Notes under the pieces: generated by a model
Told to the model about the DNA's origin: nothing
Database searches by the model: none
What the model saw: the letters and a program-made list of their open reading frames with translations, nothing else
Position numbers and translations under genes: made by a program
Assembly: GCA_030323885.1 (NCBI GenBank)
Contig: CM059193.1
Coordinates: 53,162,749-53,226,748 of the forward strand
Direction: 5' to 3'
Length of the DNA stretch: 64,000 bases
Source of the DNA: Branchipolynoe longqiensis
Lineage: Eukaryota; Annelida; Polychaeta; Phyllodocida; Polynoidae
In this document: piece after piece, positions 11,588 to 63,173 of the stretch
Position numbering within the stretch: the first letter of the stretch is position 1
Layout of the letters: every line of letters begins with the position of its first letter

Positions 11588-12176
11588 AGCTCCTGTCACA
11601 CCTCCCCAGATTGAGGAAACGGATAGAGTCGGACAAAAATATTCTAGTCCTGTGTGATTCAGATGTGAAATGTATCGATTATGTAACGGATGGTAACAGA
11701 CGGGTAACAGATGGTAATGGATGGGTAACAGACAGTAACAGACGGTAATGGTGGATAACATATCTAACAATCAATAGACAATTCAATATACAAAAAGAAC
11801 TATAACGAACAGCAATGGATGCGTAATGGATATGTAAAGGATGGGAATGTATGGTAATAGTGGTAATGGATGGTAATGGATGGTAATGGACAGGAACGGA
11901 TGGGAACGGACAGGTAATGGAAGAAACCGACGGGAACGGACGGGGAACAGATGGGGAATGGACGGTAATGGATAATAACCACATACGTCAGTCCAGCGCA
12001 ATCCATTACAAGTTTTGTGCATGCTCAAAACTTGTAACGGATCGGGCCGGATATCAAAGGGATATCAATGGATATCAATGGATATGCAATGGACACACAC
12101 CGGACTTTGTCAGATATCAACAGACTTTGTTTGGTTTCTTTTCGTTTCCCCAATCCGGTGATGTGTGGCAGAGTCT
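11588..12176. mobile_element. Family A palindrome-centred MITE, TAACGGAT type
   Basis: The ends form 34-bp imperfect TIRs: left AGCTCCTGTCACACCTCCCC, right the inverse of AGACTCTGCCACACATCACC, both continuing into GATTG(A/G)GGAAACG. Flanks are TAA-like on both sides (11586-11588, 12178-12180). The inside is written in GGTAACAGAC, GGTAATGGAT and GGATATCAATGG repeats. At 12006-12037 there is a perfect 12-bp-arm dyad (TTACAAGTTTTG ... CAAAACTTGTAA), the shared family A centre. It encodes no protein. Confidence 0.8.
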
Positions 12177-12203
12177 CTAAATTCCCTTGTATTCAGCAAC
12201 GCA

Positions 12204-14205
12204 CGTTTACTTAATAAGTGCCCCCCATATGTAAGTTGGATATGGAGGAGCACATCCAGGGTTTACTTAATAAGTGCCCCCGTATGTAAGTTGGATATGG
12301 AGGAGCACATCCAGGGTTTACTTAATAAGTGCCCCCGTATGTAAGTTGGATATGGAGGAGCACATCCAGGGTTTACTTACTAAGTGCCCCCCTATGTAAG
12401 TTGGATATGGAGGAGCACATCCAGGGTTTACTTAATAAGTGCCCCCATATGTAAGTTGGATATGGAGGAGCACATCCAGGGTTTACTTAATAAGTGCCCC
12501 CGTATGTAAGTTGGATATGGAGGAGCACATCCAGGGTTTACTTAATAAGTGCCCCCGTATGTAAGTTGGATATGGAGGAGCACATCCAGGGTTTACTTAA
12601 TAAGTGCCCCCCGTATGTAAGTTGGATATGGAGGAGAGCACATCCAGGGTTTACTTAATAAGTGCCCCCGTATGTAAGTTGGATATGGAGGAGCACATCC
12701 AGGGTTTACTTAATAAGTGCCCCCGTATGTAAGTTGGATATGGAGGAGCACATCCAGGGTTTACTTAATAAGTGCCCCCGTATGTAAGTTGGATATGGAG
12801 GAGCACATCCAGGGTTTACTTAATAAGTGCCCCCTGTATGTAAGTTGGATATGGAGGAGCACATCCAGGGTTTACTTAATAAGTGCCCCCCTATGTAAGT
12901 TGGATATGGAGGAGCACATCCAGGGTTTACTTAATAAGTGCCCCCGTATGTAAGTTGGATATGGAGGAGCACATCCAGGGTTTACTTAATAAGTGCCCCC
13001 GTATGTAAGTTGGATATGGAGGAGCACATCCAGGGTTTACTTAATAAGTGCCCCCGTATGTAAGTTGGATATGGAGGAGCACATCCAGGGTTTACTTAAT
13101 AAGTGCCCCCGTATGTAAGTTGGATATGGAGGAGCACATCCAGGGTTTACTTACTAAGTGCCCCCCGTATGTAAGTTGGATATGGAGGAGCACATCCAGG
13201 GTTTACTTACTAAGTGCCCCCCTATGTAAGTTGGATATGGAGGAGCACATCCAGGGTTTACTTAATAAGTGCCCCCGTATGTAAGTTGGATATGGAGGAG
13301 CACATCCAGGGTTTACTTACTAAGTGCCCCCTGTATGTAAGTTGGATATGGAGGAGCACATCCAGGGTTTACTTAATAAGTGCCCCCGTATGTAAGTTGG
13401 ATATGGAGGAGCACATCCAGGGTTTACTTAATAAGTGCCCCCCATATGTAAGTTGGATATGGAGGAGCACATCCAGGGTTTACTTAATAAGTGCCCCCGT
13501 ATGTAAGTTGGATATGGAGGAGCACATCCAGGGTTTACTTAATAAGTGCCCCCGTATGTAAGTTGGATATGGAGGAGCACATCCAGGGTTTACTTAATAA
13601 GTGCCCCCGTATGTAAGTTGGATATGGAGGAGCACATCCAGGGTTTACTTAATAAGTGCCCCCGTATGTAAGTTGGATATGGAGGAGCACATCCAGGGTT
13701 TACTTAATAAGTGCCCCCTGTATGTAAGTTGGATATGGAGGAGCACATCCAGGGTTTACTTAATAAGTGCCCCCGTATGTAAGTTGGATATGGAGGAGCA
13801 CATCCAGGGTTTACCTAATAAGTGCCCCCCATATGTAAGTTGGATATGGAGGAGCACATCCAGGGTTTACTTAATAAGTGCCCCCGTATGTAAGTTGGAT
13901 ATGGAGGAGCACATCCAGGGTTTACTTAATAAGTGCCCCCGTATGTAAGTTGGATATGGAGGAGCACATCCAGGGTTTACTTAATAAGTGCCCCCGTATG
14001 TAAGTTGGATATGGAGGAGCACATCCACGGTTTACTTAATAAGTGCCCCCTGTATGTAAGTTGGATATGGAGGAGCACATCCAGGGTTTACTTAATAAGT
14101 GCCCCCATATCTAAGTTGGATATGGAGGAGCACATCCAGGGTTTACTTAAAAAGTGCCCCCGTATGTAAGTTGGATATGGAGGAGCACATCCAGGGTTTA
14201 CTTAA
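12204..14205 (+). repeat. 55-bp satellite array, about 36 copies
   Basis: The unit runs GTTTACTTAATAAGTGCCCC, CGTATGTAAGTTGGATATGG, AGGAGCACATCCAGG. Copies are almost identical; variants are mainly in the C run (5-6 C, sometimes CT) and TTAATAA versus TTACTAA. Because 55 is not a multiple of 3 the frame rotates, giving short open frames that repeat with a 165-bp period; these are not genes. The right edge passes into TTAAAGTTGCATGGTCCGAT. Low divergence means recent amplification or homogenisation. Confidence 0.97.
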
Positions 14206-14282
14206 AGTTGCATGGTCCGATGAAATATAATTTTGTCAAAATTAAAACAACTCCTTACATTTGATCCTATATATCCAACTTA

Positions 14283-14951
14283 TGGGGCTGTCACACTACG
14301 ACGTAACGACGTCAACGTAGGGAGAACGTGAAGAACGTTGAACTTCTCGGCATAGTATGCAAATTTGGGCAGAAGTTGAACGTGGATGCAGCGTAGTGGA
14401 CGAGAGAGTAACGTCAGTAAAGTGTAGTGATACCGTCGTTCGATGAGAGAGGTGAACGTAATGACGCTGACGGAACGCTATGAACGTTATTCCATCGTCA
14501 GAAGAACGTTACGTGACATTAGCTACGTCATGAGACGTTGAACGTACGTTGAATGCACGTTCTCCTGACGTTCTCCTGACGTTGTCCTGACGTTCCCATT
14601 ACGCCCCGTGGGCATTTGCACTTGGTTTAATGGGGGTCAACGTAGTGGAACGTAGTTGAACGTAGTGAGGAGCGTTGGAATAACGTCCGTTTAACGTCAT
14701 TGACGTTCGCTGAACGTGAACAGAACGTACGGCGAACGTAAACCCTTACGTTCGACCTACGTCGAAACTTTTGAACATGTCCAAAACCTCGACGTATCTC
14801 GACGTAACACGACGTAATGTGACGTAGCTTGACGTCACTCTAACGTCATTATGACGTCATCATAACGTAATCCAACGTACATCAACGTAATGACGAAATA
14901 TCACCACGTTAGGCTCACGTTGGCTCATTACGTCGTAGTGTGACAGGGGTA
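14283..14951. mobile_element. Family A palindrome-centred MITE, ACGT type
   Basis: TIRs are TGGGGCTGTCACACTACGAC and the inverse of TACCCCTGTCACACTACGAC. Target duplication TTA is at 14280-14282 and 14952-14954. The interior is dense in AACGT, TGACGT and GACGTT words and holds the family centre near 14765-14789 (AACTTTTGAACATGTCC...). No protein is encoded. It is of the same subtype as the copy at 15765-16508. Confidence 0.9.
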
Positions 14952-15134
14952 TTAGATAGTGGTGTATTAGCTAATGATTTGGGACATCATATACAGAATA
15001 ACCAGTGAATTTATAAGCTCATCCCTTCAGACACTCACTTTGAAACACCCATTATGCAGGGAGGGCATTAACCAACTAGGCCAATCTCGTGACCTCATTA
15101 GCCTCCCCCCAACCAAGTAGGCCTACTGTGCAGG

Positions 15135-15761: not shown

Positions 15762-15764
15762 TTA

Positions 15765-16508
15765 TGGCCCTGTCACACTACGACGTGACTACGTCAGCGT
15801 AGGCAGAACGTGAAAATAATTATATTACGTCGACGTTATGGGCGTAATATGCAAATTGTGGACGTGAGCGTAACGTGAAAGTAACGTTGGTGTACGTCGT
15901 GACCTTAGCTGTAACGTGACAACGTTAGGGGGGAGGGGTAATTGGCGATGTGACTGGGCGTTAGTGTGACGTGAGCGTAACGTCGCCGTAACGGGTGCGA
16001 CGTGGACGTAACGTGACCGTAACGCCACCGTAACGTGACCGTAACGTGACCGTAACGTGACCGTAACGTGACCGTAACGTGACCGTAACCGTGACCGTAA
16101 CGTGACCGTAACGTGACCGTAACGTGACCGTAACGTGCAAAACGCTGCCCACACGTTGCTCCCACCCGGGCCGTCGGTCTGACGTGACATAATGTGACTC
16201 TAACGTCATTTACGCTGCTATAACGATCGCGGAACGTCTACCTAGCGTCATTGTCACGTCATCCCGACGTAACAGCTTCACGTCGAGATACGTCAAAAGT
16301 TTTGAACAGGTTCAAAACCTTGACACGCGCCGACATAACACGACGTAACATGACGTAGCTCGACGTCACTCTAACATCATTATGACGTCATCATAACGTA
16401 ACCCAACGTACGGCAACCCAACGTACGGCAACGTAATGACGAAAAATCGTCACGTTAGGCTCACGTTAGGCTCACGTTGGCTCGTTACGTCGTAGTGTGA
16501 CAGGGGTA
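15765..16508. mobile_element. Family A palindrome-centred MITE, ACGT type
   Basis: TIRs TGGCCCTGTCACACTACGAC / TACCCCTGTCACACTACGAC; target TTA at 15762-15764 and 16509-16511. The interior contains at least nine tandem ACCGTAACGTG units (16010-16135) plus TGACGT words. The central dyad is at 16298-16320 (GTTTTGAACAGGTTCAAAAC). It sits inside the AC-rich microsatellite, which resumes on the other side. Confidence 0.92.
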
Positions 16509-16511
16509 TTA

Positions 16512-20415: not shown

Positions 20416-21727
20416 TAAGTGTTGCGTGTGACGAATTGCAGAGTGTGCAGACTATTACATGATGCATATCACAGTAAATAATTGTGTAACTAAGTGTCGC
20501 GTGTCATGAGTTGCAGAGTGTGCAGACTATTACATGATGCATATCACAGTAAATAAGTTTGTAACTAAGTGTCGTGTGTGACGAATTGCAGAGTGTGCAG
20601 ACTATTACATGACGCATATCACAGTAAATAAGTGTGTACCTAAGTGTCATGTGTGATGAATTGCAGAGTGTGCAGACTATTACATGATGCATATCACAGT
20701 AAATAAGTGTGTAACTAAGTGTCGCATGTGATGAATTGCAGAGTGTGCAGACTATTACATGATGCATATCACAGTAAATAAGTGTGTAACTAAGTGTCGC
20801 GTGTGACGAATTGCAGAGTGTGCAGACTATTACATGATGCATATCACAGTAAATAAGTGTGTAACTAAGTGTCACGTGTGACGAATTGCAGAGTTTGAAG
20901 ACTATTACATGATACATATCACAGTAAATAAGTGTGTAACTAAGTGTCGCATGTGACAAATTGCAGAGTGTGCAGATTATTACATGATACATATCACATT
21001 AAATAATGGTGTGACTAAGTGTCGCATGTGATGAATTGCAGATTGTGTAGAATATTACATTATGCATATCACAGTAAATAATGGTGTAACTAAGTGTCGT
21101 GTGTGATGAATTGCAGAGTGTGCAGATTATTACATTATGCATACCACAGTAAATTATGGTGTAACTAAGTGCTACATGTGATGAATTGCAGTGTGTGCAG
21201 ATTATTACATTATGCATATCACAGTAGATAAGTGTGTAACTAAGTGTAGCATGTGATGAATTGCAGAGTGTGCCGACTATTACATAATGCATCACATTAA
21301 ATAATGGTGTGACTAAGTGTCGCATGTGATGAATTGCAGATTGTGTAGAATATTACATTATGCATATCACAGTAAATAAGTGTGTAAGTAAGTGTTGTGT
21401 GTGATGAATTGCAGAGTGTGCAGACTATTACATGATGCATATCACAGTAAATAATGGTGTAACTAAGTGTCGCGTGTGATGATTTGCAGAGTGTGCAGAC
21501 TATTACATGATGCATATCATAGTAAATAATGGTGTAACTAAGTGTCGCGTGTGATGAATTGCAGAGTGTGCAGATTATTACAGTATGCATATCACAGTAA
21601 ATAAGTGTGCAACTAAGTGTTGCATGTGATGAATTGCAGAGTGTGCAGATTATTACATTATGCATATCACAGTAAATAATGCTGTAACTAAGTGTTGTGT
21701 GTGATGAATTGCAGAGTGTGCAGATTG
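20416..21727. repeat. 75-bp satellite array
   Basis: Unit: TAAGTGTCGCGTGTGATGAA, TTGCAGAGTGTGCAGACTAT, TACATGATGCATATCACAGT, AAATAAGTGTGTAAC. Copies vary by 5-15%, most often AAATAATGGTGTAAC for the last part. Since 75 is a multiple of 3 the reading frame persists, producing open frames with a 25-residue repeat on the minus strand; these are not convincing genes. Confidence 0.95.
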
Positions 21728-21917
21728 GTCGTAATGCTCGCATTGCGTTTGATTCGTGGCAGGGGAGGAGGACCCCCCCCCCTCTCTATCCCTCCCCTGC
21801 CGCGACCTTTGGGTCGCTGACATAACACCCCTCCCCCCTCCCTCGGCCCTTATAACCGGCAGCCCTTGCTGCTCCTAGCCACTCGCCTCCTCTCACCCTC
21901 CTGGCCCGGACATAATT
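21728..21917. other. 190-bp GC-rich insertion in the 75-bp satellite
   Basis: The satellite stops within CAGATTGGTCG and resumes at GATAAATTGCAGAG. The insert has an inverted pair GGCAGGGGAGG / CCTCCCCTGCC around a C run, then CCCTTATAACCGGCAGC and CT-rich sequence. I see no TIRs or target duplication that would place it in a known class. Confidence 0.7.
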
Positions 21918-22546
21918 TTGATAAATTGCAGAGTGTGCAGACTATTACATGATGCATATCACAGTAAATAAGTGTGTAAGTAAGTGTCGCATGTGATGAA
22001 TTGCAGAGTGTGCAGACTATTACATGATGCATATCACAGTAAATAAGTGTGTAAATAAGTGTCACATGTGATGAATTGCAGAGTGTGCAGACTATTACAT
22101 AATGCATATCACAGTAAATAATGGTGTAACTAAGTGTTGTGTGTGATGAATTGCAGAGTGTGCAGACTATTACATGATGCATATCACAGTATATAAGTGT
22201 GTAAGTAAGTGTTGCGTGTGACGAATTGCAGAGTGTGCAGACTATTAGATGATGCATATCACAGTAAATAAGTGTGTAAGTAAGTGTTGCATGTGACGAA
22301 GTGCAGAGTGTGCAGACTATTACATGATGCATATCACAGTATATAAGTGTGTAACTAAGTGTTGCGTGTGATGAATTGCAGAGTGTGCAGACTATTACAT
22401 GATGCATATCACAGTAAATAATGGTGTAACTAAGTGTCACACATGATGAATTCCAGAGTGTGCAGACTATTACATCATGCATATCAAGTAAATAATGGTG
22501 TAACTAAGTGTCGCGTGTGACGAATTGCAGAGTGTGAAGACTATTA
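21918..22546. repeat. 75-bp satellite array, continued
   Basis: Same unit and orientation as at 20416-21727; ends in GACTATTA where a family A MITE is inserted. Confidence 0.95.
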
Positions 22547-25094
22547 TGGGGCTGTCACACTACAACGTTTCTAGCCGGCGACCGATCAACGTGTAGTGAT
22601 TTTGGGCGATAATATGTGAAACATCAGGACGCGCCAATGGCGCGTTACGGGGGCGTTGGTACATTTCGCAACGCGTCGGTACACTATCTTTGACGCTGAT
22701 GGTCGGCGCAAAACGCCGGCGCACGCTCGTAGTCGCCCAAGGTTTTAAGCATGTCAAAAACAACCCAACGACCGGCAGCGCGCGCAAATATATGGGTAAG
22801 GACGTTAGGCGCGCTTCGCGATGCGTTGGACGCGCCGGAATAACGTTATGGGAATGCGAGGAAGACGGCGCGCGCGCGGGAGGGTCGTTGCTCACACGTT
22901 GCTGTGTGTGTGTCTCTGTGTGTGTCTCTGGGTGTGTCTGTGTGTGTCTGTGTGTGTGTCTCTGTCTGTGTCTCTGTCTGTGTCTCTGTGTCTGTCTCTG
23001 TATGTGTATCTGTGTATGTCTCTGTATGTGTCTCTGTCTGTGTCTCTGTGTGTGTCTCTGTGTCTGTCTCTGAATGTGTCTCTGTGTCTCTGTGTATGTC
23101 TCTGTATGTGTCTCTGTCTGTGTCTCTGTCTGTGTCTCTGTGTCTGTCTCTGTATGTGTCTCTGTGTCTCTGTGTATGTCTCTGTATGTGTCTCTCTCTG
23201 TGTCTCTGTGTGTGTCTCTCTCTGTGTCTCTGTGTCTCTGTGTCTGTCTCTGTATGTGTCTCTGTGTATGTCTCTGTATGTGTCTCTGTCTGTGCCTCTG
23301 TGTGTGTCTCTGTCTGTGTCTCTGTGTCTGTCTCTGTATGTGTCTCTGTGTCTCTGTGTATGTCTCTGTATGTGTCTCTGTCTGTGTCTCTGTGTGTATC
23401 TCTGTCTCTGTCTCTGTGTCGGTCTCTGTATCTGTCTCTGTGTATGTCTCTGTATGTGTCTCTGTGTGTGTCTCTGTCTGTGTCTCTGTGTCTGTCTCTG
23501 TATGTGTCTCTGTGTCTCTGTGTATGTCTCTGTATGTGTCTCTGTCTGTGTCTCTGTGTGTGTCTCTGTCTGTGTCTCTGTGTCTGTCTCTGTATGTGTC
23601 TATGTGTCTGTGTGTATGTCTCTGTATGTGTCTCTGTATGTGTCTCTGTGTGTGTCTGTCTGTGTCTCTGTGTCTGTCTCTGTATGTGTCTCTGTGTCTC
23701 TGTGTATGTCTCTGTATGTGTCTCTGTCTGTGTCTCTGTCTGTGTGTCTGTCTCTGTATCTGTTTGTGTCTCTGTCTGTGTCTCTGTATGTGTATTTGTA
23801 TTTGTCTCTGTATGTGTCTCTGTCTGTGTCTATGTTTGTGTATGTGTCTCTGTATGTGTATATGTATGTGTCTCTGTCTGTGTCTCTGTCTGTGTCTCTG
23901 TATGTGTCTCTGTCTGTGTCTATGTATGTGTCTCTGTGTGTGTCTCTGGGTCTGTGTCTCTGTGTCTCTGTGTGTCTGAGTCTGTGTGTGTGTCTCTGTG
24001 TCTGTGTGTGTCTCTGTGTCTCTGTGTGTCTGAGTCTATGTGTGTGTCTCTGTGTCTCGGTGTGTGTCTCTGTGTCTCTGTGTGTCTGAGTCTCTGTGTG
24101 TGTCTCTGTGTCTCGGTGTGTGTCTCTGTGTCTCTGTGTATCTGTGTGTGTGTCTATGTGTGTCTATGTCTCTGTGTCTCAGAGAGAGAGAGAAACAGAG
24201 ACAGAGACACAGACAGAGACACATACAGAGACACATGCAGAGACACATACAGAGACACACACAGAGACACACAGAGACACACACAGAGACACACACAGAG
24301 ACACACACAGAGACACAGGCAGAGACACAGACAGAGACACACACAGAGACACACACAGAGACAGACAGAGACACAGACAGAGACACAGACAGAGACACAG
24401 ACAGAGAGACATACAGAGACCCATACAGAGACACAGACACAGAGACACAGACAGAGACACATACACAGAGACACAGACACAGACACAGACACAGACACAG
24501 ACACAGACAGACAGAGAGACATACAGAGACCCAGACAGAGACACAGACCCAGAGACACAGACAGAGACACATACACAGAGACACAGACAGAAACACAGAC
24601 AGAGACACAGACAGAGACACAGACAGAGACACACACAGAGACACACACAGAGACACACACAGAGACACACACAGAGACAGAGACACACACAGAGAGACAT
24701 ACAGAGACCCAGACAGAGACACAGACACAGAGAGACATACACAGAGACACAGACAGAGACAGACACAGAGACACAGACAGAGACAGACACAGAGACACAG
24801 AGAGAGACACAGACAGAGACACAGAGAGAGACACATACACAGAGACACATACAGAGACACATACAGAGACACACACAGAGACACAGACAGAGACACAGAC
24901 AGAGACACAGACAGAGACACAGACACAGCGGGCCGATATACGTTACCGCAACGTTGGCCGCGCGCTACCAACACGCTGTGGGAACGTCCAATTTCCCCAT
25001 ATTTCCCCTAAATCTTTAACGTTTCTCGACGCGCAAGATAGTACTTTCAACGCTGACGGGTCGCCGGGAGAAACATCATAGTGTGACAGCCCCA
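22547..25094. mobile_element. Family A MITE, GCGCGT type, swollen by an inverted microsatellite
   Basis: Inserted in the satellite motif GACTATTACATGATG with TTA duplicated (22544-22546, 25095-25097). TIRs TGGGGCTGTCACACTA on both ends. The interior is GCGCG-rich; the centre near 22740-22763 is GGTTTTAAGCATGTCAAAAA. Without the 22902-24929 microsatellite the element is about 520 bp, close to the 602-bp relative at 40087-40688, which has matching flanks (GGGAGGGTCGTTGCTCACACG before, and CGCGCAAGATAGT...GACGGGTCGCCG after). Confidence 0.93.
22902..24929. repeat. 2-kb strand-switching microsatellite (TGTGTCTC)n / (GAGACACA)n
   Basis: About 1.28 kb of TGTGTCTCTGTATGTCTCTG-type sequence is followed, at about 24180, by 0.75 kb of its complement (ACAGAGACACAGACAGAGAC). 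The two halves form a large imperfect inverted repeat with no spacer (CTCTGTGTCTCAGAGAGAGAG at the switch). The long open frames here, up to 725 codons rich in Cys/Val or Thr/Arg, come only from the repeat. Confidence 0.95.
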
Positions 25095-30316: not shown

Positions 30317-31326
30317 TTACCTAGGCCCTCCCGACAACATAGCAGCTACCCTGAAGTCAGAGGCCAGTTCCATAGGTGCCTGTAGGTATTCGAACACTGC
30401 ATCTGATTTCCAGTCCCCCCTTTCCTTTATTTCTAATATGGATGCTCCACACCTTCTAAGAAAAGTAGCAACCCCTCTGCGCATGCTATGGGTCGTAAAA
30501 GCCCCCGGCTGTAGACCCGCCCACCCACAAAGCAATTTCAGCGACCCCAGATAGAAGCTGTATGGCATCGGGATTGAACCCCCCCCCCCTTGGGGATCCT
30601 GAATGCTTGGCCCTGTGGTGGCAAGGCCATATCTGCAAAGTGCCTGCGTACCCAGTATATGGCACACAGTGACGGGTTCACTACATGTGAAACGGGAATT
30701 AAGTGTGTTCTCTCACGATACTGTTTTGTTTTTGATTTCCTTTTCCTGATCATCATCCCTCACCTGTAGAAGGTGAAGTCCGCTCTGAGTAAGGATGAGT
30801 CAGAGTCCGATACGTGACACTTCCTTAGTAGTGCCCGAAATGACAGTAGGATGGCTGCGCGCAGTGCCACATGGCCGGGTGTTAGCCGCATTATGGAGAA
30901 CAGTTTTAACAATTGGTGTGGCAATAGGGAGGGCGCCTGCTTGGGCGCGTCCCCCAGTGACTTTCTAATGCCCGACATGCACTTCCGCACCCGATGGTTT
31001 TTGTAGTCTATCTGGGAACAACCTAGCTCTTTTAGATGATTGTTTAAGGTGCTCAGATATTGTTTTATCGAGCTATAACACATACGCCGAGCCAGATACG
31101 ACATGTACATACAAACTTGATCAGAACGACACGGATACGGCGATATCATCCACGCAAATACCTCGCAAAATTCCAGGTAGGCTTTAACCTGGACCGAGTG
31201 TGTTAGCTTGGTGGCATCCGTGTAGTGTGCGTCCTCGAACTCACCACACTCCCTCCACAGCCTCGACCAGTCTGAATCAACAATTAAATAGATCATGGCA
31301 GCAAAGGGCCCGAGCTGCATCCACAT
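30317..31326 (-). pseudogene. Ngaro-like tyrosine recombinase
   Basis: 31326-30760 carries the core-binding half (YLARRMCYSSIKQYLSTLN, VRKCMSGIRKSL) and the first catalytic Arg region (LLSFRALLRKCHV). An in-frame TGA at 30762-30760 interrupts it; the same frame continues to about 30590 with KSKTKQYRERTHLIPV. A frameshift in a C/G homopolymer (about 30579-30589) moves the rest to the frame ending at 30317. That part has HSMRRGVATFL (His and second Arg), KERGDWKSDAVFEYL (the His/Trp position and the Tyr nucleophile) and a short tail. All catalytic positions are visible. The start overlaps the RNase H end by about 50 bp in another frame. The enzyme would integrate the circular cDNA. Confidence 0.9.
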
Positions 31327-33475
31327 CCCTCACTCGAGCTATACTTTTGAAATTATGCAGCCTACTTAGGCTGTCGCATATTACATTATCCCTGGTGTTA
31401 ATGTAGACTGACTGCACATTGAAGTTATGTTGGATAGAGCTCCAGAATATTAGGTGTAACCATGCCATTGTTGTCTTGTTTCTGCTTCTACCTGAGTTTA
31501 AAGCTGCCCTAACCTGCGTGTTGTCAGTGACGAATTTGACAGTCTTATTCTCCCATAGGTTTCCCCATTTGCGAACCCCCGCGAGTATTGGCCACAATTC
31601 CAGCACATTGATGTTGTCCGTTTTACAACCGACATTTTTCACTCCCTCAAAATGGTGGCCTAGCCAGGTTTGCAATGTTTTCACTCCCCCCAGCTGGAAG
31701 GCTCCTGCAAGCCAGTCACTGCCATGCGTTGCCCCGAACCTAAATAACAAAGCATCACTGTATACGGATATGCATGGTAGGTGTGGTTGAATGATTTTTG
31801 CTTTGCCATTAAACTTGGCGCCAAAATCAAGCCACCATTGCAGGTCCAGCCTGAAGTCTTTGTTTAGCCTTACTTTATGATCCCTGCTGCGCACCGAGGC
31901 GATTAGGTCATACACCCTGCGTGAAAAGGTACGAACCCCATGGACTATTTCAAAGCAGTGCACTAGCACCCCCACGAGGCTCTCTAGCTCACGTTTTGTT
32001 GCTTTTCTGCACCACAGGAAGAGCCTTAGCTGTTCCTGTAGCTTTACTAGTTTATCTGGGGGGAGTCTTCATTCCATGTTGACCGAATCCACCTCTATTC
32101 CTAGGAACCTGGCTATCTCTTTCGGATAGATTAATTTTTTTAAACTCACATAGAAACCGATCCGGCGCAGGATCCCCACCAGTAGCAGCTGACCCTCCCT
32201 GCATTCTAACTCTGTCCTAGCGACGTCGCAAAAATCATCTAAGTAATTAACGCACTCTGGGTGCCCCTCGCGTACCATGCACCTAACTATAAAATCGCTA
32301 ATTTTCGAAAATACATAAGGGCTGCTGCTAAGAGCCATACATAGGCGGTTGTCCCGCAAAAAGACTGTTTCCCCCGCAAATTCCGATGCTAGGCCCTGAC
32401 GCTCTCTGCATCCCGGATGATGATATGTATTACTAATGTCAGCGGTGGCACAGTAATCCCCCTCCTGCAAAATAGATGTTACAGACTCCACCGAGTTATA
32501 ACTAAAATTAGCCCAACAACCTTCCTTGCTGTCATTTACACAGTTTCCTGTTGGGCTCGAACAGTCTACAATAGCCCAGAAGTCATCGTTACCTTTAGGG
32601 ACACTACTTAGAGCATGTATACACATACAGGGTTCATCAACAATTGTCAAAAGTTCTTCATCAATTTCAAGCTGTAACTTGCCCGACATGGCCACCCCTA
32701 TCTCACCTTTAGTGATAGAACCATAGTTTTCCTTATGATAGGTGCTGTCACATTCACTATCAATGACTCTGAAACCGAAACAAACCCCCCGGAGAATATA
32801 GTTCCAGTCCGGATCTACATCCCCGCGGCAGAAGCATTCAGCATATACACGACATGGTTTTATTTGTGCATGAACACCACCGATCAAATAGATACAACTA
32901 CAATAACCATCTATGCAATCTTAAAAAATAGCTATGAAACATTCGGACCGAGTGTGCGTGCCATCTCGGTCGAGAGCCAACAAGGTAAACTTCAACCCCG
33001 TCCTGTCCTTATTAGGGTCACGGCCCACCACCCGCAACCAGTCCTCATTGTGTTCCTTTAGTTGTGGGTGATTGACGCCAAAGGACCCTGAGGTGCGGCC
33101 ACCTTGGGCACCGTCACTGTGCCGCATTTTACGGATCCCCGCATTGTTGCTTGCGCTGTGTTGGGCAGCCTCAGTCATGAGGTCCCTGCCAATTTGAAAC
33201 TCGCTGGTTTCACCACGATCACAAGGCCCCCCCCCCCCCCCGGTTTGGGGGGTGGGGGAGGATTCCCCGCAACGGTCATGAGACGACATCAAATGCTCGG
33301 TGCAGGTGCCGAGGCCCTCCCCCGCACTAATCCCCGCCTCAGAAGTAGCCGTTGGGCCGATGCCGTGGCCGACACCCAAATTGCTGTCATCACACACCTT
33401 GGGCGACATGCGGGCCTGGCTTGTATTGGTAGCAGCTTGACGCGGACAGCTCCCCCCTATGAGATCGCTGTCCAC
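31277..33475 (-). pseudogene. Ngaro-like reverse transcriptase-RNase H, one frame with two in-frame stops
   Basis: The whole span stays in one frame. Stops are TAA at 32923-32921 and TGA at 32071-32069. The N-terminal third (33475-32924) is Gly/Ser-rich then WLRVVGRDPNKDRTGLKFTL. The RT (32887-32072) has WAIVDCSSPTGNCVND, GDYCATADISNTYHH (first catalytic Asp) and ECVNYLDDFCDVA with the catalytic YLDD. The RNase H (31975-31277) has VYSDALLFRFGA, INVLELWPILAGV, VKFVTDNTQVRAALNSG and YINTRDNVICDSLSRL, all expected blocks. It copies element RNA into DNA. Loss of function needs only the stops, so this is a young copy. Confidence 0.92.
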
Positions 33476-33514
33476 ACTCCCTACCCCACGCCCGCAGTAG
33501 CTCAGCGGTTCAAG

Positions 33515-34651
33515 TCAATACTTTTTGTTTGGACAAGCGTCTACTATGTGATTTTTACTTTTGCATGACAAACAATGATGGTCCCACTCGCATTTGTCCC
33601 GCACACAACCAGCTTTATTGTAATTATGGCCAAAGCACACCCCTTTCACCTTAGTCGCGCCATTCCTTACGGTGTCGATGTGATGGTTTGCCATGCCACC
33701 CCGACTTTTAGTGGTTACTGTTTTATGTGAGCGTGAGTTATCCATATTGAAGTGCAATAGTGACAAACCGTTGTCCCCCATTTTGAAAGCTCTAACTCCC
33801 TTCTCCTTCGCTTTCTCCCGCACTGCTGCATCGTAGCCCCTGTAGGCTTCTTCGGTGTAATTGTTAGTGGTAGAGTGCATGGTCATGTATGCTAGATGTC
33901 CCATGTAACCCTTTAGTTCCTCCACATCCATATTTGCTTTGGTTGATCCCTTGATGCCCCACAATCAACCGGCGTACAGCAACTCGTTAAACGTAAGTCA
34001 TCTCACGTTCTTTTTCCCTTTTGTGTAACGAGCAAGGGAGAACTTGCTTTTCTTTTTCTTCCTACGTCTCCTATGATCCCAGCTGCTATCCCTGTCAGCC
34101 GATTCCGATGAGTCCGTGGATGACGATGATGATGAGGACGGGTTGGCTGGACTGTTGTCCGAATCACTACTCGTCACGTCCTCCTTTTTGCTGGATTTCT
34201 TTTCCTTCCTTTTCATCTTTTTTCCCTTCGGCGCTTTTGTGGGCATCCACGTTGCGCGTTCCTCCGCTGCGATTTCCTTTTCCAATGTGGCCTTCAATTC
34301 GGCCTTCCTATGCGAAAGCACTCGAGCTTCCACCATCCTTCTCAACTCCAGTTCCTCCGCATCCGGCTCCACTTTCATCGGCACTATCATATGTGCAGGC
34401 TGTTTTACCTCCCCCATGCCCGACAGTGACATTTTTAGCATACTATCAGCCGTGCCTTCATCCGTAGTCTCAGTAACTAACTGATATTCCTCTGCCAGCT
34501 CAGCCTTCACCGTTCTACAACCAACCTTAGCCTTCACCACCTTGCATTTACTTCCATGAGGCGGTTCATGCTCATCCCTACACGCCTCGCAATTATCCAG
34601 TCCCATGACTGTGTTTTGCGGCGACGTGCGTAAGGGGAGCTCGCGGTGCAC
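33515..34651 (-). pseudogene. Ngaro-like gag with Cys/His motif, two in-frame stops
   Basis: One frame from 34651 to 33515, broken by TGA at 34000-33998 and again near 33967. The N-terminal part has a CEACRDEHEPPHGSKC stretch, a long charged helix-prone region (EELELRRMVEARVLSHRKAE), a Lys-rich segment and a serine run with SSDSDNSP. The C-terminal part has CFGHNYNKAGCVRDKCEWDH followed by HCLSCKSKNHIVDAC, the CCCH plus Cys/His arrangement found in gag of DIRS/Ngaro elements. Probably the RNA-packaging structural protein. The first codon is taken at 34651 because A1 ends at 34661. Confidence 0.85.
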
Positions 34652-34660
34652 GTATGCACC

Positions 34661-34839
34661 AAGTCAAATTTCCGGCCGAATGGATAGCTGATAGCGACCG
34701 CACCGCCCGAAGTCGCCTCACCCGGGCAGCTTGCACCTGATTGGATGCTCTCCTGTGGCACGGGGCGCCCCAGCCGGGTGAGTACAGGCGGCACAGCACC
34801 CACCAGCCCTACGCGGGCAGGTGATATTAAAGCCCTGCA
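34661..34839 (-). repeat. Split direct repeat A1
   Basis: 179 bp; partner of A2. It lies directly upstream of gag and should contain the promoter of the element. Confidence 0.92.
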
Positions 34840-38273: not shown

Positions 38274-38476
38274 ATAAGTACCTTCTGTGAACTATTTGTT
38301 GTATAGCTCACATATAACATCTGGGATGCATCCGAATGCATCTTTCAATACTATACTTGAGGTATTTTCAATGCCCGAAGGCTTGTTGCAATCAATTGAT
38401 TTTATGAGCTCACTTATCTCTTTTATTGTGGTTGTGCAATCTCCAATGTCTGTGTTTAATTGTTGCGCTTTCGTGG

Positions 38477-39429
38477 TCAGTTTGTGTTGAATTGTTTGGA
38501 TAGTTTATTGCCTATGGTTGAAAAATGTTTGTTCATTATATTAGCAGTATCGTTGTTGCTGATTTCCACCCCCTCGTTGTTGTAAAGGGTAATCCATTCT
38601 TTATTTTTATTATTTGGTATTAGTATTTTCACATTGTTCCAGAATTTGTGTGAGTTTTTTCCCCATTGCTGGTCTTGTTTGACAATGTACCGTCTTTTGG
38701 CTTTTCTCACTGATTTCTGGCTACGATTTCTTGCTTTGTGGTAGTTTTCTATGTCTAGTAGTCGCTCGCTTGCTTTGGCTAATTTGCCTGTTTATATTTG
38801 TCCATAATTAGGTTGATTAATTCTGGGGTTACCCATGGGTCTTGATTGTTTTTGATTTTAAGTTTTTTTATTGGGCAGGTAGTGTCCAGATGCTTTCTGA
38901 CTTCCCCAATGATATAGTTCCATTGGTCATTTACACCTATCTCAGTTGGAAATGGCAATTTAATTTTCTCTTTCAGATGAGTTTCTAGTACCTCTTTTGT
39001 GTAGTTTTTGTATGATCTACCCATACGGGGAGTAGTTTTGTTTTTTGTTTTTATTTTCTTTCTAGTAACATATATCAATTCATGATCGCTAATGCCCCAG
39101 TTTCTTGTTCCTGAGGTGTGGGTATGATTTGAGTCTGTTATTATTAGGTCTATTATCGAGCTGTTTTCTCCTAGCCTTGTAAGCTCACTCATTTTTTGCT
39201 TTAATCCTCTGCCTTTGATTAAGTTCTCTAGTGAGTGTTTGTTTTTGTTGTTTGTTTTGTAGTTTATGTTGAAATCCCCTAGTAAGAATATCTCCGCCTT
39301 CGTCAGTTTCGACACACTTTCTAGGGATGTCTCCAGTTGTGCGATGAAATCTTCGATGTTTCCATTTGGCGGTCTATATAGACTCCCTAAAGCTATATTA
39401 GCTTGTTTTTCATTTTTTATGATTAACAA
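38477..39429 (-). pseudogene. LINE endonuclease C-terminus and linker
   Basis: 39429-38779 carries LGSLYRPPNGN, IFLLGDFNINYK (the GDFN block of apurinic-type endonucleases), SSIIDLIITDSN and WGISDHELIYV (the SDH block with the catalytic His). 38710-38477 gives a linker (RRYIVKQDQQWGKNSHKFW) before the RT. The N-terminal catalytic blocks are missing because of 5' truncation. This enzyme nicks target DNA to prime reverse transcription. Confidence 0.88.
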
Positions 39430-39518
39430 AAGTATTCACATATATATATAATATTATTCCTGTAAATGGTCATCTATCAGCTAAATATGTTACTACCTGT
39501 GTTAGGTATATTTACATA

Positions 39519-39933: not shown

Positions 39934-40083
39934 AGCACACGTTGACCGCGCGTGGATAATGCGCCGCGCTGACGCCGATCTTTTTCCCCAAACCGACGAA
40001 AAGTTGGACGTTTCTCGACGCGCAAGATTTTATTTTCAACGCTGACGGGTCGCCGGGAGAAGCGTCGTAGTGTGACAGGGCCT
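39934..40083. mobile_element. Family A MITE, right part only
   Basis: Matches the last ~150 bp of the neighbouring full copy (CACACGTTGACCGCGCG to GTGTGACAGGGCCT), including GACGGGTCGCCGGGAGAAGC. Its left part is absent. Confidence 0.88.
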
Positions 40084-40086
40084 TTA

Positions 40087-40688
40087 TGGCCCTGTCACAC
40101 TCCGACGCTTCTTACCGGCGACCCGTCGACGTGTGTTGTTTTGGGGCGATAATTAGTGAAATGTCGAGACGCGCTGGGGGCGCGTTATGCGCGCGTCGGT
40201 ACACGTCGGTACACTTTCCTTGACGTCGATGGTTGGCGGACAACGTCGGCGCGCGTTATTGGTCGCTGAGCGTTTTGAACATGTCAAAAACTTCCAGCGA
40301 CCGGCAACGCGCGGGAGTAAATGGGTAAGAACGCTAGGAGGACGTTAGGCGCGCGTCGCGCTGCGTTGGACGCGCCGGAATAACATTATGGGAACGCTAG
40401 GAAGACGGCGCGCGCGCGCGGGAGGGTCATTGCTCACGCGTTGCGCAAACTGGGCCATTTTTGTTTTACGCCCTAGCAACATTTAAGGTTAAATGAAGAC
40501 GTCGCGCCAAGCTTTTTTTTTTTTTCCCCCAGCGCGTCGACACACGTTTGCCGCGCGCGTATAATGCGCCGCCCTGACGCCGATCTTTTCCCCCAAACCG
40601 CCGAAAAGTTTGACGTTTCACGACGCGCAAGATAGTCCTTTCAACGCTGACGGGTCGCCGAGAGAAGCGTTGTAGTGTGACAGGCCCA
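40087..40688. mobile_element. Family A palindrome-centred MITE, GCGCGT type
   Basis: TIRs TGGCCCTGTCACACTCCGAC / TGGGCCTGTCACACTACAAC; target TTA at 40084-40086 and 40689-40691. Centre GTTTTGAACATGTCAAAAAC at 40272-40291. The rest is GCGCGTCGG, GGCGCGTTA words. A SINE-tail-like piece (TTTTACGCCCTAGCAACATT) lies at 40463-40495. No protein is encoded. Confidence 0.92.
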
Positions 40689-48337: not shown

Positions 48338-49046
48338 TAAAGGGCGCATTCCTTACACGCGTAATGCGAATGCGAATGCGAATGCGAATGCGACAAAAAA
48401 TCGAAACGCCTTGAAACCTATGAGCTACATTCCTTACATGCGTAATGCGAATGCGAATGCGAATGCGAATGCATTTTCCCGATCGGTCCATGTAGCGATC
48501 GGTGCATAATGCGTCAAGCTGGTGCGAATAGAAAAGCATCAGTCGCATTTGTCCATTGATATAAGGCTGGAGGAGGTGACTGATAATTACGGACAGCCGG
48601 GACAAGGTAGTGCGAATAGAAAAGCATCAGCCGCATTTGTCCATTGATATAAGGCTGGAGGAGGCGACTGATAATTACGGACAGCCGGGGGAAGGACGGT
48701 TGTAGAAGACGGTTGTAGAAGATTGGCAGCAAAGACTCTTTTAAACCCTGTAACTACACCAGCAAAGGGTAGCCCCCCAGTCTTTAGCCCTGTATCTACA
48801 CTCTCTCTTAAATCCAAGCAGACACGGGAGACATAGTGTCGAGTGCCTTAAATTTGGCCTACATGTCGGATATGTAAAATGCTACCAGATGCTACCAGAT
48901 GCTTTAAAAATAAATGAATGATAGATAGCCACAAGTACTTTTGATATACTTCACTGCATGCTGCATGCCGCATGCCGCATAACGCATAACGCGTGTAAGG
49001 AATGATGGCATTCGCATACCGCATAACGCATAACGCATAACGCATT
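48338..49046. mobile_element. Family B MITE, left part (interrupted)
   Basis: Starts AAAGGGCGCATTCCTTACAC then GTAATGCGAATGCGAATGCG, centre CCGATCGGTCCATGTAGCGA, and the block CAGTCGCATTTGTCCATTGA ... GGAGGAGG(T/C)GACTGATAATTACGG, which is doubled in tandem (about 48524-48683). Breaks at CGCATT (49046), where the 3.8-kb element begins; its right end is at 53271-53304. Confidence 0.8.
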
Positions 49047-57635: not shown

Positions 57636-58464
57636 AGGCCCTGTCACACTACGACGTTTCTCACCAACGTGCTTCGACGCGTGCCGACGGGTTGGGTTTT
57701 TGTTCAACACGTCGGTCCACCGGCGCGTTGCCGGCGCGTTACCGGCGCGTCGGTACATAGCAACGTGTGAATGGACACGTCGGCGCGCGTCGGGGCGCGT
57801 CGGGGCGCGTCGAGGTTTTGTGCATGCACAAAACTTTGGACGCGCGGCGACGCGCGCCAACGGGTTGGAGGGCGCGTTACGGACGCGTTAGCAACACGTC
57901 GACACGCGTTGGCGGCGCGCCGGCCGTACGCTGGCAGGACGTTGATCAACGTTGGTTAACGTTGGCTTTTTTCCCCCCAAAATGGGAGCGTTCCGTCGGC
58001 GCGTTGGGAAAGTCCCATCGACATGTTGTGGGCATGCCATTGGCGTTGCTCCAGCGTTTCTCGGCGCGTTGGACGTGTTGCCGGCGCGCCTGGATGCGTT
58101 GGCCGCGCGCTGTGGACGCGCTGCGGGCGCGTCCTAACGTGTTGCTGGCGGGTATGTACGGGTTCACGCAATAGCTAACACGATACCAATGCGCTGCCTC
58201 CACGCCGTAAACGCGCCGACAACGCGCCGACAGCGCGCCGACAACACGCCAATAACACGCTACCGACACGCTACATACATCCTAATAACACGCTACTAAC
58301 GCGCCAATAACACGCCAATAATGCGCCTCCAACCCGCCACTAACACGCTGCGCCGCGTCAAACTTTCTCCCAAAGCGCTGAAAAGTTTGACGTTTCTCGA
58401 CGGGTTGCAAATATTTTGTGCGTTGCCGGCGCGCCGGCGGAAGCGTCGTAGTGTGACAGGGCCT
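57636..58464. mobile_element. Family A palindrome-centred MITE, GCGCGT type, at the centre of the 5-kb structure
   Basis: TIRs AGGCCCTGTCACACTACGAC on both ends; target TAA at 57633-57635 and 58465-58467. The centre is a perfect 20-bp palindrome GTTTTGTGCATGCACAAAAC (57815-57834). Words GGCGCGTTGCC, CGTCGGGGCGCG and CTAATAACACGC. No protein. Confidence 0.93.
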
Positions 58465-58680
58465 TAACGCATAACGCAATACGCATTACGCGTATATGGA
58501 ATGATGGCATTCGCATAACGCATAACGCATTATGCATTACGCATTACGCATTAAGGGCGCATTCCATATACGCGTAATGCGTAATGCGTTATGCGTTACG
58601 CGTTATGCGTTATGCGAATGCCAGCATTCCATATACGCGTAATGCGTAATGCGTTATGCGTTATGCGTTATGCAGTGAAG
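58465..58680. mobile_element. Family B ends at the centre of the 5-kb structure
   Basis: AACGCATAACGCAATACGCA, CGCGTATATGGAATGATGGC, then TTAAGGGCGCATTCCATATA and GTAATGCGTTATGCG words: at least two opposed B termini. Confidence 0.75.
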
Positions 58681-58689
58681 TATATAAAA

Positions 58690-60132: not shown

Positions 60133-60727
60133 GAATGGGACGGTCCAAACATGGCTCAGTTTAGCTTGCTTAGAGGGATGTTAGGACCGTCCCAAATATG
60201 AAGACTGCTTCCTCACAGGTCCGCCCCATAAACCTACATGTTTGCACCAGCTGTCCGTAATTATCAGTCGCCTCCTCCAGCCTTATATCAATGGACAAAT
60301 GCGACTGATGCTATTCTGTTCGCACCACCTTGTCCCGGCTGTCCGTAATTATCAGTCGCCTCCTCCAACCCTATATCAATGGACAAATGCGACTGATGCT
60401 TTTCTATCCGCCACATCTTTTACGCATTACGCATTACGCACCGATCGCTACAGGGACCGATCGGGATAATGAATTTCTGACGCATTCGCATTCGCATTAC
60501 GCATTACGCGTGTATGGAATGTAGCTCATAGGTTTCAAGGCGTTTCGATTTTTTGTCGCATTCGCATTCGCATTCGCATTACGCATTACGCGTATATGGA
60601 ATGCGCCCTTTACCCATTACGCGTATATGGAATGCGCCCTTTACGCGTATATGGAATGATGGCATTCGCATAACGCATAACGCATTACGCATTACGCATT
60701 ACGCGTATATGGAATGCGCCCTTTACA
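60133..60727. mobile_element. Family B MITE end, right arm of the 5-kb structure
   Basis: Reverse complement of 55694-56020 with the CAGTCGCCTCCTCCA block doubled (60260-60400), centre CCGATCGCTACAGGGACCGA at 60439-60458, and three copies of the terminus CGCGTATATGGAATGCGCCC near the end. Confidence 0.85.
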
Positions 60728-61188: not shown

Positions 61189-61189
61189 G

Positions 61190-61401
61190 TAGCCAGGTGC
61201 ACAGCATTACTAGGATAGGGCAAGGACTGGTTGGCTCAGTTTCAGGATAATGTGACTGAGTGGGATATCAGGTCATGATGCCAACGGCCTGGTCTCCGAG
61301 TGGGATTGAGTTGCCATGAGTGTACACTGTTACAAGTCGCTGCCCGTCCTGATATGACCTTAAATGTTACCAGGATGTAAATCTCCAACAACCAACCAAC
61401 A
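61190..61401 (+). mobile_element. SINE, 5'-truncated
   Basis: AGGATAGGGCAAGGACTGGT, GATAATGTGACTGAGTGGGA, CCTGATATGACCTTAAATG and the CCAACAACCAACCAAC tail. Confidence 0.88.
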
Positions 61402-61742
61402 GTATATAATAAGTACTCTCCCAATTAATATTCCCATAATTCAATGTCCCTTTACAAAGCCTAGCTTGGAATAAAGTTTTATTCAGTTGTGGGGATGTGA
61501 TGCTGGTTATTGCTTAAGTTGATGGAGGTGTCACGTGTTAGGTAATGGGTTCAAGGCCAAGGGGTTGTGGGGTTATAGTTCTGAGAGTCACTCATGCTCA
61601 ACCGTAGTCATCCAAATCGCAGTGTCGTGGTGTGGGCTGGTGGGCGGATTCTGAAGTCCTTGTCCAAACCTCACGGGTTCAAAGTGGGGGTGGCGGCTTG
61701 CATTCATCAGTCGTTGGTCAGTCACTGTTCACTTCGGGCCTC
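61402..61742. other. Unassigned non-coding stretch
   Basis: No feature recognised. Confidence 0.35.
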
Positions 61743-61744
61743 GG

Positions 61745-62015
61745 GGGAGTTCGGTTCTCGGTGGAGTCAAACCAATGACTTTAAAAATTGATACTTGTCG
61801 CTTCCTAGGCAGGCGCTTGGCATTAACAGGATAGGGCAAGGACTGGTTAGCTCAGTGTCAGGATAATGTGACTGAGTAAAATATTGGGGCATGGTGCCAG
61901 TGGCCTGATTTGCAAGTGGGGCAACACTATAAAGTCGCCATGAGTGTGCACTGTCACAAGTCGGTACCCGTCCTGATATGACCTTAGATGTTGCCAGGAT
62001 GTCAAACTCCAACAA
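61745..62015 (+). mobile_element. SINE, lacking the A box
   Basis: GTTCGGTTCTCGGTGGAGTC (B-box end and linker), AAACCAATGACTTTAAAAAT, full body and GACCTTAGATGTTGCCAGGA tail; ends CTCCAACAAC. Confidence 0.88.
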
Positions 62016-62139
62016 CTGTTGACTTGTGTATGTGTAAGATGGTGTTTCAGGCTGTGTGTGATGGTTGTGCAATGGGAACGGAAGGCTGACTTTAGTAATA
62101 AAAACTGTATCCACCACACTGCCTTCGGCTTAATGCGTA

Positions 62140-62230
62140 CTTACAGATATATAGAGATTTATAGAGATAATGCGAGATATATAGAGATATATAGAGAAAC
62201 ATAGAGAAATATAAATAAATATTGAGATAT
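62140..62230. repeat. Microsatellite (GATATATA)n
   Basis: AGATATATAGAGATATATAG units; similar sequence continues at 62410-62550 and 63175-63265 between the MITEs. Confidence 0.8.
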
Positions 62231-62231
62231 A

Positions 62232-62407
62232 CAGTAAAACCTGCCTAACCGACCACCTCCACAAATCGACCAATCCCATGTATCGATCGCTTTATTTGGG
62301 TCCCAACAATACCATTGTAACCATATTAACTCCCTGAACTGACCACATCCCTAAATCGACCACTTAAAGTCAATCCCAAGGTCCGTCGATTTAGAGAGGT
62401 TTTACTG
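62232..62407. mobile_element. Family D small MITE (TA target, Tc1/mariner-pogo-like ends), copy 1
   Basis: CAGTAAAACCTGCCTAACCG ... GATTTAGAGAGGTTTTACTG with TA on both sides (62230-62231, 62408-62409). 176 bp. CAGT...ACTG ends with TA target are typical of Tc1/mariner/pogo-derived MITEs. Confidence 0.88.
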
Positions 62408-62553
62408 TATAGATATATAGAAATGCATAAAGATACATGAAAATATATTGAGATACATAGAGATCTATGAAGATACATAGTGATATGTTGAGATACATAG
62501 AGATCAACAGGGATATAGAGCGATAAAAATACAGAGAGCTATAGACAGACTTA

Positions 62554-63173
62554 AGCCCCGGTCACATACACGTTAGTGGAAATAGTTATCTGTAGATAGA
62601 TTAATGTGGGTGAAACGTGCTGTCACTACGTTCAACTACGTTAAGGTATGGCAGGTTTTGGTTGATCACCCACCTAATAGCATGGATAAATACGTTATGG
62701 CATGGATCCCGGTACGCTACAGTACGGATCCCGGTACATCCAACTATGTTGAACTACGTTGAACTACGTTGAACTACCCTCCACTATGTCCAACTATGTT
62801 CAACTTCGTCCACTAACGGTAATGTGACCATGACAGAATGGCCAAGGTTTGGTGTGGGTCAAAGTAGCTAGGGTATGTTAGAGTATGCTAGAGTATGCTA
62901 GAGTACATTAAGAAGTATGCTAGAGTATGGTAGAGTACGCTAGATTATGTTACCATCATGGAGGCTACGTCTGCCTCAAACGAACCTCTCTTTTGAACAT
63001 GTCCAAAGCTTAAATCGGAACTCACAGCTCACACACGTTCTTATCACGTTCTCACCACGGAGAAGTACAGATGCCTGTATGTTGCACTACGTTCAACTAC
63101 GTTCAACTACTTTCAACTACGTTAGCCTCAACTACGTTCAACTACGTCCACTAATGTGTATGTGACCAGGCCT
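62554..63173. mobile_element. Family A palindrome-centred MITE, CTACGTTGAA type
   Basis: Ends AGCCCCGGTCACATACACG and CGTGTATGTGACCAGGCCT-like inverse; flanks TTA (62551-62553) and TCA (63174-63176). Words TTGAACTACG, GTATGCTAGA and GGATCCCGGTAC. Centre CTTTTGAACATGTCCAAAGC at 62990-63009. The terminus differs from the other copies (GGTCACATAC versus TGTCACACTAC), so it is an outlying subfamily. Confidence 0.82.

Follow-up and report, generated by a model that had tools for sequence, protein, structure and literature searches.

How can a non-coding transposon change the site that is read by the protein mobilising it, without losing all of its copies at once? This open question is raised by a group of miniature inverted-repeat transposable elements (MITEs) in a 64-kb stretch of contig C8 (hereafter the window) of the 1.85-Gb Branchipolynoe longqiensis genome (G000), to which all genome-wide counts below refer. 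The elements are short, apparently non-coding, present in high copy and bounded by terminal inverted repeats (TIRs) and target-site duplications (TSDs), and are MITEs by these marks. An earlier note, made from the letters of the window, had listed copies with shared ends, a shared dyad and, between these parts, a short word private to each copy or subtype. When the copies were read and their ends set out, the coordinates of eight elements and one end fragment (Table 1) were confirmed, with ends and words as described. The words do differ between copies; only the interior of the 22547 element (elements are named here by their first position) departs from the description, since positions 22905-24925 are a TGTGTCTC/AGACAG microsatellite and not GCGCGT words. 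Missing from the earlier note was the most regular feature of all, the spacing of the words. What is new here is that words recur every 10-11 bp whatever the word, and that a lattice of distances between dyad and tip is common to clades of elements whose words are unrelated. Tens of thousands of natural copies with interchangeable words at a fixed helical spacing and two conserved landmarks allow direct measurement of how the code changes, how spacing is constrained and how words turn over.

Spacing of the words and distance of the dyad

Repeats of 4-mers in the window elements are 9.3 times (z 34) and 11.7 times (z 47) as frequent at lags 10 and 11 as dinucleotide shuffles predict, as compared with only 1.5 times at lag 9 and 0.9 times at lag 12. 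Harmonics appear at lags of 20-22, 30-34, 40-45 and 50-56, and reach about lag 67. When neighbouring words on the same strand are measured in seven window elements, 104 of the 161 spacings are 10 or 11 bp, whereas eight are 9 bp and a single one is 12 bp, and both the 10- and the 11-bp spacing are common inside single elements. The pattern is strong in elements 93, 11588, 14283, 15765, 57636 and 62554. A blind phasing scan of the window recovers these six and misses 22547 and 40087; it also returns some A/T-rich or simple-repeat arrays. Tandem arrays in the window have the lattice period in 25 of 28 cases inside elements (with several arrays per element) and in 17 of 70 cases outside them.

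The same spacing was found in a larger set of 101 elements from the genome and the window, in which tip-sampled and dyad-sampled copies are mixed (selected at 250-1000 bp; length 266-949 bp, median 644). Within the range of 6-15, the strongest lag is 10 in 26 elements and 11 in 73, that is, in 99 of 101; the two exceptions are the 40087 copy, which peaks at 6 (tied with 10), and locus L068, which peaks at 13. The words of these elements are different, and include AACGTCA, AACGTGA, CCGGACA, ACCTATG, CGCGCCG, TAGTTGA, TAATGGA and others. As 10-11 bp is one turn of the helix, the repetition of words suggests docking sites aligned on one face of the DNA.

The second landmark is the dyad. A GTTTTGAACATGTTCAAAAC-like dyad is present in all eight window elements that include its region, as the earlier note had held, and a scan allowing five mismatches returns exactly eight sites in the 64 kb, each inside a listed element; at three mismatches there are six sites in the window, with 0.01 expected. 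Across the genome, 24,310 dyads were counted at up to two mismatches, as compared with seven for a reversed control pattern. The ends are abundant as well. The earlier note had described a single TIR type, and the core is indeed similar throughout, but three clades can be told apart: X (CCTGTCACACTACGACG), A (CCAGTCASACCTYACCGGA) and I (CGGTCACATACACGTTAGTGG). Their tips number about 60,000 in total: 15,081 + 15,175 (30,256) for X at up to one mismatch (controls 0 + 0), and, at up to two mismatches, 10,218 + 10,259 (20,477) for A (controls 1 + 1) and 4,781 + 4,736 (9,517) for I (controls 4 + 3).

The generality of the dyad was tested on loci of clades X and I chosen by their tip alone, using two reference dyads and up to five mismatches. 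The first X batch comprised 30 loci, six of them without a partner tip in range and two of them duplicates, and the dyad was present in 20 of the remaining 22; a second batch gave 18 of 20 (38 of 42 in all). Among 20 I loci, five were unpaired, and 11 of the 15 complete copies had the dyad. Most copies therefore hold it (49 of 57 for X and I together), as the account in the earlier note demanded, and reversed and shuffled dyads had no match in the same elements. In viral contigs, the dyad pattern was met in 47 stretches, but in no case were such tips on its flanks, and the tips themselves had no match there.

What the dyad is for is a separate matter. It might be a host transcription factor site that drives transcription or opens chromatin and has nothing to do with transposition. 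The p53-family half-site consensus is RRRCWWGYYY, which the dyad core resembles, and 10 of 32 distinct dyads fit a p53-type core. The other 22 do not, and the outer TTTT and AAA letters are among the most invariant columns of the dyad; we regard this explanation as very improbable. The idea that the dyad consists of two TIR tips placed back to back was not supported, as within-element alignments of tip arms with dyad arms ranked within 5%-95% of all windows.

The dyad was also said to be central, which it is not: its relative position in the window copies is 0.08-0.74, and it usually lies 110-210 bp from one tip, with arm lengths of 69-257 bp overall. These distances are not evenly spread. We collected 116 arms (77 X, 24 A and 15 I) in 29 clusters at 80% identity, and fitted a period to 50 distances of up to 215 bp, each distance being counted once per cluster. 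Among all periods from 4 to 25, the best is 10.1 (R 0.52), a value of R that one of 2000 jittered sets reached in the period range 8-13. No more than 1.5 bp separates 96 of the 116 arms from 160 + 10.1n, and without the 160-bp arms the same holds for 59 of 79, where chance would give about 30%. Distances of 117-120, 129-131 and 139-141 bp are present in all three clades, and those of 149-150, 160, 171 and 189 bp in X and I. Off the lattice are 113, 133, 134, 155, 156, 174, 175 and 186 bp, and one A subtype has arms of 69-79 bp; the 186-bp arm of element 15765 holds extra duplicated pieces, 26 bp in total.

A proposed phased binding platform and its rivals

We propose, at about even odds (a probability of roughly 0.5), that the whole body of the element is a helix-phased platform to which a MADF/Myb-like partner binds. 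In this model, the transposase would act and cleave at the outer TIR tip (WGGSCCTGTCACAC and relatives), and the words would be repeated sites, one helical turn apart, for a second DNA-binding protein (Myb/SANT or MADF-like), whose bound copies would stack along the same side of the helix. A dimer would occupy the dyad as its symmetric site, in the same register and about 11-20 turns from one tip. Loss, gain or amplification of a whole word, which is one turn, would leave a copy working because the register survives, and the letters could then drift to a new word as the specificity of the partner changes. The accessible text of PMC9710019 reports a 9-bp subterminal motif as the target of the Myb-like Harbinger3_DR protein, and fast evolution of MADF proteins; that the words may be the sites of such a protein is what we infer by analogy. 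Binding of proteins to the words and the dyad, selection on the spacing and a word that follows its protein are likewise inferred. A further step is more tentative: the lineage may conserve helical register and not sequence, so that any word would serve if it recurs every turn with the dyad whole turns from the tip, and subfamilies could exchange the entire recognition code when the specificity of a fast-evolving partner of MADF type shifts. If register is selected, it would provide a sequence-independent signature for protein-binding arrays in repeats that have diverged past alignment.

Helical phasing would equally suit a device acting on chromatin or DNA shape, in which phased CpG- and A/T-containing words bend the DNA or position a nucleosome, with the dyad about one nucleosome repeat from the tip. 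T-run and CG-containing words do alternate in the main arm, which is about 165 bp long including the tip and has a CpG observed/expected ratio of 2.1. However, within one element the letters vary far less than a signal for bending or nucleosomes would presumably allow, and the spread of arm lengths is wide, which makes such a device improbable.

There is a sharp difference between the fixed and the free parts of the elements. Among 13 subtype representatives (72% clustering), mean pairwise identity is 78% for the 12-bp tip and 77% for the dyad, both figures being raised by the recognition of arms through tip and dyad, and 44% for the aligned interior, as compared with 41% for mononucleotide-shuffled interiors. 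The persistence of the dyad is not an artefact of this choice of arms, because sampling by tip alone also recovers it. Between clades, interior identity (39.6%) is below the shuffled mean, although 18% of all interior pairs score above the shuffles' 95th percentile, and the arms of clade X have anchors in common, one of them a T-run that lies about 48 bp inside. Ends and dyad are kept, then, while the interior is replaced, just as the earlier note had put it, and interiors do not align between the TIR clades.

The replacement proceeds by gain and loss of whole words and by private amplification, which bears out the note's idea of a rewritten interior. In an alignment of 50 near arms of the main X cluster, from which four arms of 186-257 bp (other subtypes, far arms, duplications) were put aside, there are 16 deletions of 10, 11 or 12 bp. 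Smaller indels are those of 5 bp in L067, 3 and 1 bp in L068, 3, 1 and 2 bp in L083 and 1 bp in L048, and eight arms, several from one subfamily, carry +1/-1 pairs that keep the arm length. Privately amplified words sit on the far side of the dyad in elements with similar near arms. Thus, L051 has 21 copies of CGTTCCACT, which is present in 9 of 40 siblings at no more than three copies; an 11-bp GTCACGTTACG array is common to L109, L071, L081, L136 and the 15765 copy; and the TTGGTTGTT/TTGGTTGGT arrays of L048 and L088 are not cleanly phased. These cases show local amplification of a word also held by siblings, not always in phase. In-place replacement of letters with the spacers kept was considered for L113 against the main subtype and is not supported, as the two are no more alike at offset 0 (identity 0.38) than at offsets of -11 or +31. 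The majority X near arm is rich in CpG, as given above, and 274 of 807 substitutions in 50 X near arms are CpG transitions, so that words decay by CpG loss.

The earlier note had suggested slippage or template switching in the replication of a hairpin as the source of the rewriting: a single strand would fold at the dyad and template switching would copy words between its arms. Two window copies do have 60-bp palindromes around the dyad, and four of five elements tested fold better than their shuffles (z -6.2, -1.1, -7.3, -8.6 and -3.5), the fifth no better. Strong folding is no proof of this mechanism, because inverted words alone would give it. Moreover, the arms flanking the dyad pair well at a fixed register in three of eight window copies and do not do so in five, the dyad has no compensatory signal above chance, and the indels are explained by ordinary slippage; hairpin replication is therefore quite improbable.

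The main and serious rival of the binding platform is a neutral minisatellite, in our judgement somewhat unlikely. An ancestral 10/11-bp array would have passed on its unit length by descent, slippage and unequal exchange would have homogenised private words, and spacing and lattice would be by-products without selection on phase. Much of the evidence just described fits well: length variants are mostly whole-word deletions, and L051, L109 and others amplify words that stand at 0-3 copies in most siblings. The commonest near-arm length, 160 bp (37 of 116 arms), is mostly the inheritance of one clade, so that much of the lattice is shared descent. Against this rival, the interiors of the three clades do not align any more, yet the lag stays at 10 or 11 and does not move to 9 or 12; single elements commonly hold both values; and the period is a different one in most of the remaining arrays of the window. 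Units of other lengths are amplified too, which means that unit length is not mechanically fixed.

Several observations weigh against the binding platform: (i) whole-word indels are what slippage between repeats would produce without selection; (ii) the subtype of 22547 and 40087 is only weakly phased, and some amplifications are unphased (TTGGTTGTT at lag 8 in L048, and the 22547 microsatellite); (iii) in the X elements L141 and L149 the sole dyad-like site is more than 300 bp from both tips; (iv) clade X alone gives a naive p of 0.0015 for the 28 arms other than 160 bp but 0.39 for the 18 unique values, so that the strength of the lattice rests on pooling the clades; (v) seven complementary double changes in the dyad, as compared with 4.3 in column shuffles (maximum 11), are not a significant sign of symmetry; (vi) for a PIF/harbinger-derived MADF protein, chromatin immunoprecipitation (ChIP) marks a promoter fragment containing a TIR, and no bound motif emerged from an electrophoretic mobility shift assay (EMSA), as far as the accessible text of PMC11893794 goes; and (vii) the autonomous counterpart that the earlier note had envisaged, with ends of clade X, A or I, was not found among 11 DDE_Tnp_4 loci of 4-9 kb each.

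Superfamily, autonomous relative and known systems

The elements are in all likelihood non-autonomous PIF/Harbinger-like transposons. TIRs of this superfamily are short and usually begin with A or G; those described here are short and begin with A (AGGCCC) or T (TGGGGC, TACCCC). A TWA TSD is among the stated marks of PIF/Harbinger in the accessible text of PMC4482050, and in that of PMC2836001 mPing is mobilised by two proteins and leaves TAA duplications. The 3-bp TWA duplication is seen here in the window copies, the flanks of tips and an empty site. The earlier note had given a TTA/TAA target, which holds for the clean 3-bp duplications of five window copies (Table 1); elements 11588 and 62554 have no matching duplication, and 93-424 lacks its left TIR. 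The host of element 22547 is a 75-bp satellite (20416-22546), in which 17 units read GACTATTACAT, with a single TTA where the element has two flanking TTA; these units are the direct empty site of the insertion. TTA or TAA adjoins 69 of 77 tips, scored on one side of the element only. Ten open frames overlapping five window elements have no match in Pfam.

A survey of the genome for DDE_Tnp_4 gave 150 scored matches of 5155 candidates. The tip scans of the 11 loci covered nine of 5-6 kb for all three tips, and two further copies of one family for an X-like tip. An autonomous relative is present at G000:C8:76167603-76173116 (L133+L130), with further copies at L134 and L135, and its copies on C8, C18 and C4 are 97-99% alike. 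The C8 copy has a TAA duplication and the ends AGCTGCGAACACAC / AGGTGCGGACAGAC, the left one found as a 22/30 match to the right, and contains a DDE_Tnp_4 frame (E 4e-38), MADF halves in two frames (1.5e-6 and 7.8e-7) and a BESS motif in a third (2.8e-10). Its ends are rich in GCGCGTGCGTC, and the top lag is 11 on both sides, on the right narrowly (10 to 9).

Two loci were considered as autonomous partners and rejected. At L130, an X-type tip (about 48 bp) stands beside the transposase exon, but it belongs to the interior of the element, in a part interpreted as an intron, and the element has AGCTGCGAACACAC / AGGTGCGGACAGAC as its ends; each of the three copies of the relative has this tip, preceded by TAA, next to its transposase exon. 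At L131, an X MITE adjoins the transposase and is not its own ends. Some DDE_Tnp_4 genes have other open reading frames (ORFs) beside them: YqaJ-type exonuclease ORFs at L123:3762-4547, L125:109-1458 and L132:3611-4675, and a SAP-domain ORF at L124:4132-4779.

The earlier note knew of no described family with this pattern. The superfamily is familiar, as the anatomy points to PIF/Harbinger, and what we describe is very probably a set of PIF/Harbinger-like MITEs with an unusual build; the build itself was not found in literature searches, whose coverage mostly leaves out subscription journals, and tip or dyad strings were matched in the text of four papers, all judged unrelated by title. Tandem repeats ride in the T2-MITEs of Xenopus, and a Porphyromonas MITE reportedly carries internal tandem repeats or minisatellites. 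To our knowledge, no MITEs with internal tandem repeats have a lattice common to families with different words.

One close comparison is with PIF/Harbinger and Tourist-like MITEs themselves (PMC4482050, PMC2836001), which likewise have a TWA/TAA duplication, short TIRs and high-copy derivatives, and whose relative in this genome has DDE_Tnp_4 and MADF-BESS frames; helix-phased words, an internal dyad and a private word per subtype are not mentioned in the accessible parts of those papers. Harbinger3_DR, as far as PMC9710019 is accessible, has a short subterminal motif recognised by its second protein, the role that we propose for the words, whereas a word in our elements recurs tens of times along the whole length and its letters vary by subtype. 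Galileo belongs to the P superfamily; in the accessible text of PMC3688188, repeated internal sites (THAP, in long and internally repetitive TIRs) are likewise proposed to raise binding specificity, but there are three of them, at about 70, 561-577 and 701-718 bp, and not one per turn. The CMITEs of corals (accessible text of PMC2872659) share an internal region that is better conserved between families than the TIRs; they are piggyBac-like, with a 60-bp internal consensus, and phased words are not mentioned there. The SIRC of Arabidopsis have short direct repeats with diverse spacers and are thought to derive from MITE interiors, but their repeats are 10-29 bp long (mode 13), and the accessible part of PMC10342631 mentions neither a dyad nor a helical lattice.

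Elements of the window and their surroundings

Table 1. Elements of the window and their dyads, with words, ends and arm lengths
Feature	Positions	Remarks
A-clade element	93..424	Word CCGGACAC/AACGG; without its left end; AGGCCCAGTCACACC as right TIR, adjoining TAA
Dyad of 93-424	284..303	117 bp from right tip
A-clade element	11588..12176	Word TAATGGATGG/TAACGGAT; ends imperfect
Dyad of 11588	12012..12031	141 bp from right tip; mid-point of a 60-bp palindrome (83%)
X-clade element	14283..14951	ACGT words; TSD TTA/TTA
Dyad of 14283	14768..14787	160 bp from right tip, CCTGTC being the start of counting
X-clade element	15765..16508	11-bp array of word AACGTGACCGT; TSD TTA/TTA
Dyad of 15765	16299..16318	186 bp from right tip, off-lattice
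X-clade element	22547..25094	GCGCGT words at ends; microsatellite interior 22905-24925; TSD TTA/TTA
Dyad of 22547	22742..22761	191 bp from left tip
X-clade right-end fragment	39934..40083	Without the dyad region
X-clade element	40087..40688	GCGCGT words; TSD TTA/TTA; 10/11 phasing weak
Dyad of 40087	40272..40291	181 bp from left tip
X-clade element	57636..58464	Word CGCGCCGAC(AA); TSD TAA/TAA
Dyad of 57636, variant GTTTTGTGCATGCACAAAAC	57815..57834	175 bp from left tip, off-lattice
I-clade element	62554..63173	CGGTCACATACACGTTAGTGG-like TIR; word AACTACGTTG, 10-bp register
Dyad of 62554	62990..63009	159 bp from right tip; 160 after a one-base TIR offset

The microsatellite of element 22547 has counterparts elsewhere. 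Long microsatellites of a TGTGTCTC/AGACAG-like type, which share one translated lead-in, occur at loci L118 and L127, and, as the 22547 copy also has such a microsatellite, it is as if one internal spot seeds the expansion.

The I-clade element is flanked on both sides by inverted copies of another repeat (ACAGTAAAACCT...TTTAGGGAG), at 62234-62410 and 63270-63448, and AGATATATAG-type 10-bp arrays lie close to it at 62145-62231, 62411-62505 and 63176-63230. Between elements 11588 and 14283, positions 12205-14205 are a 55-bp satellite of 36 copies with 97% matches. At 30760-34663 and 36961-39435, the window contains a run of minus-strand frames and a decayed non-LTR retrotransposon (RVT_1, Exo_endo_phos_2), and one of the minus-strand frames weakly resembles a phage integrase, with a match that falls short of the Pfam cut-off. 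Another family, at 48340-48472, 49013-49045, 58467-58673 and 60556-60704, is made of 6-7-bp words (AATGCG, GCATTAC/GCGTAAT) around ATTACGCGTATATGGAATGCG and is partly palindromic; it is possibly a second type of word-filled element with a different period.

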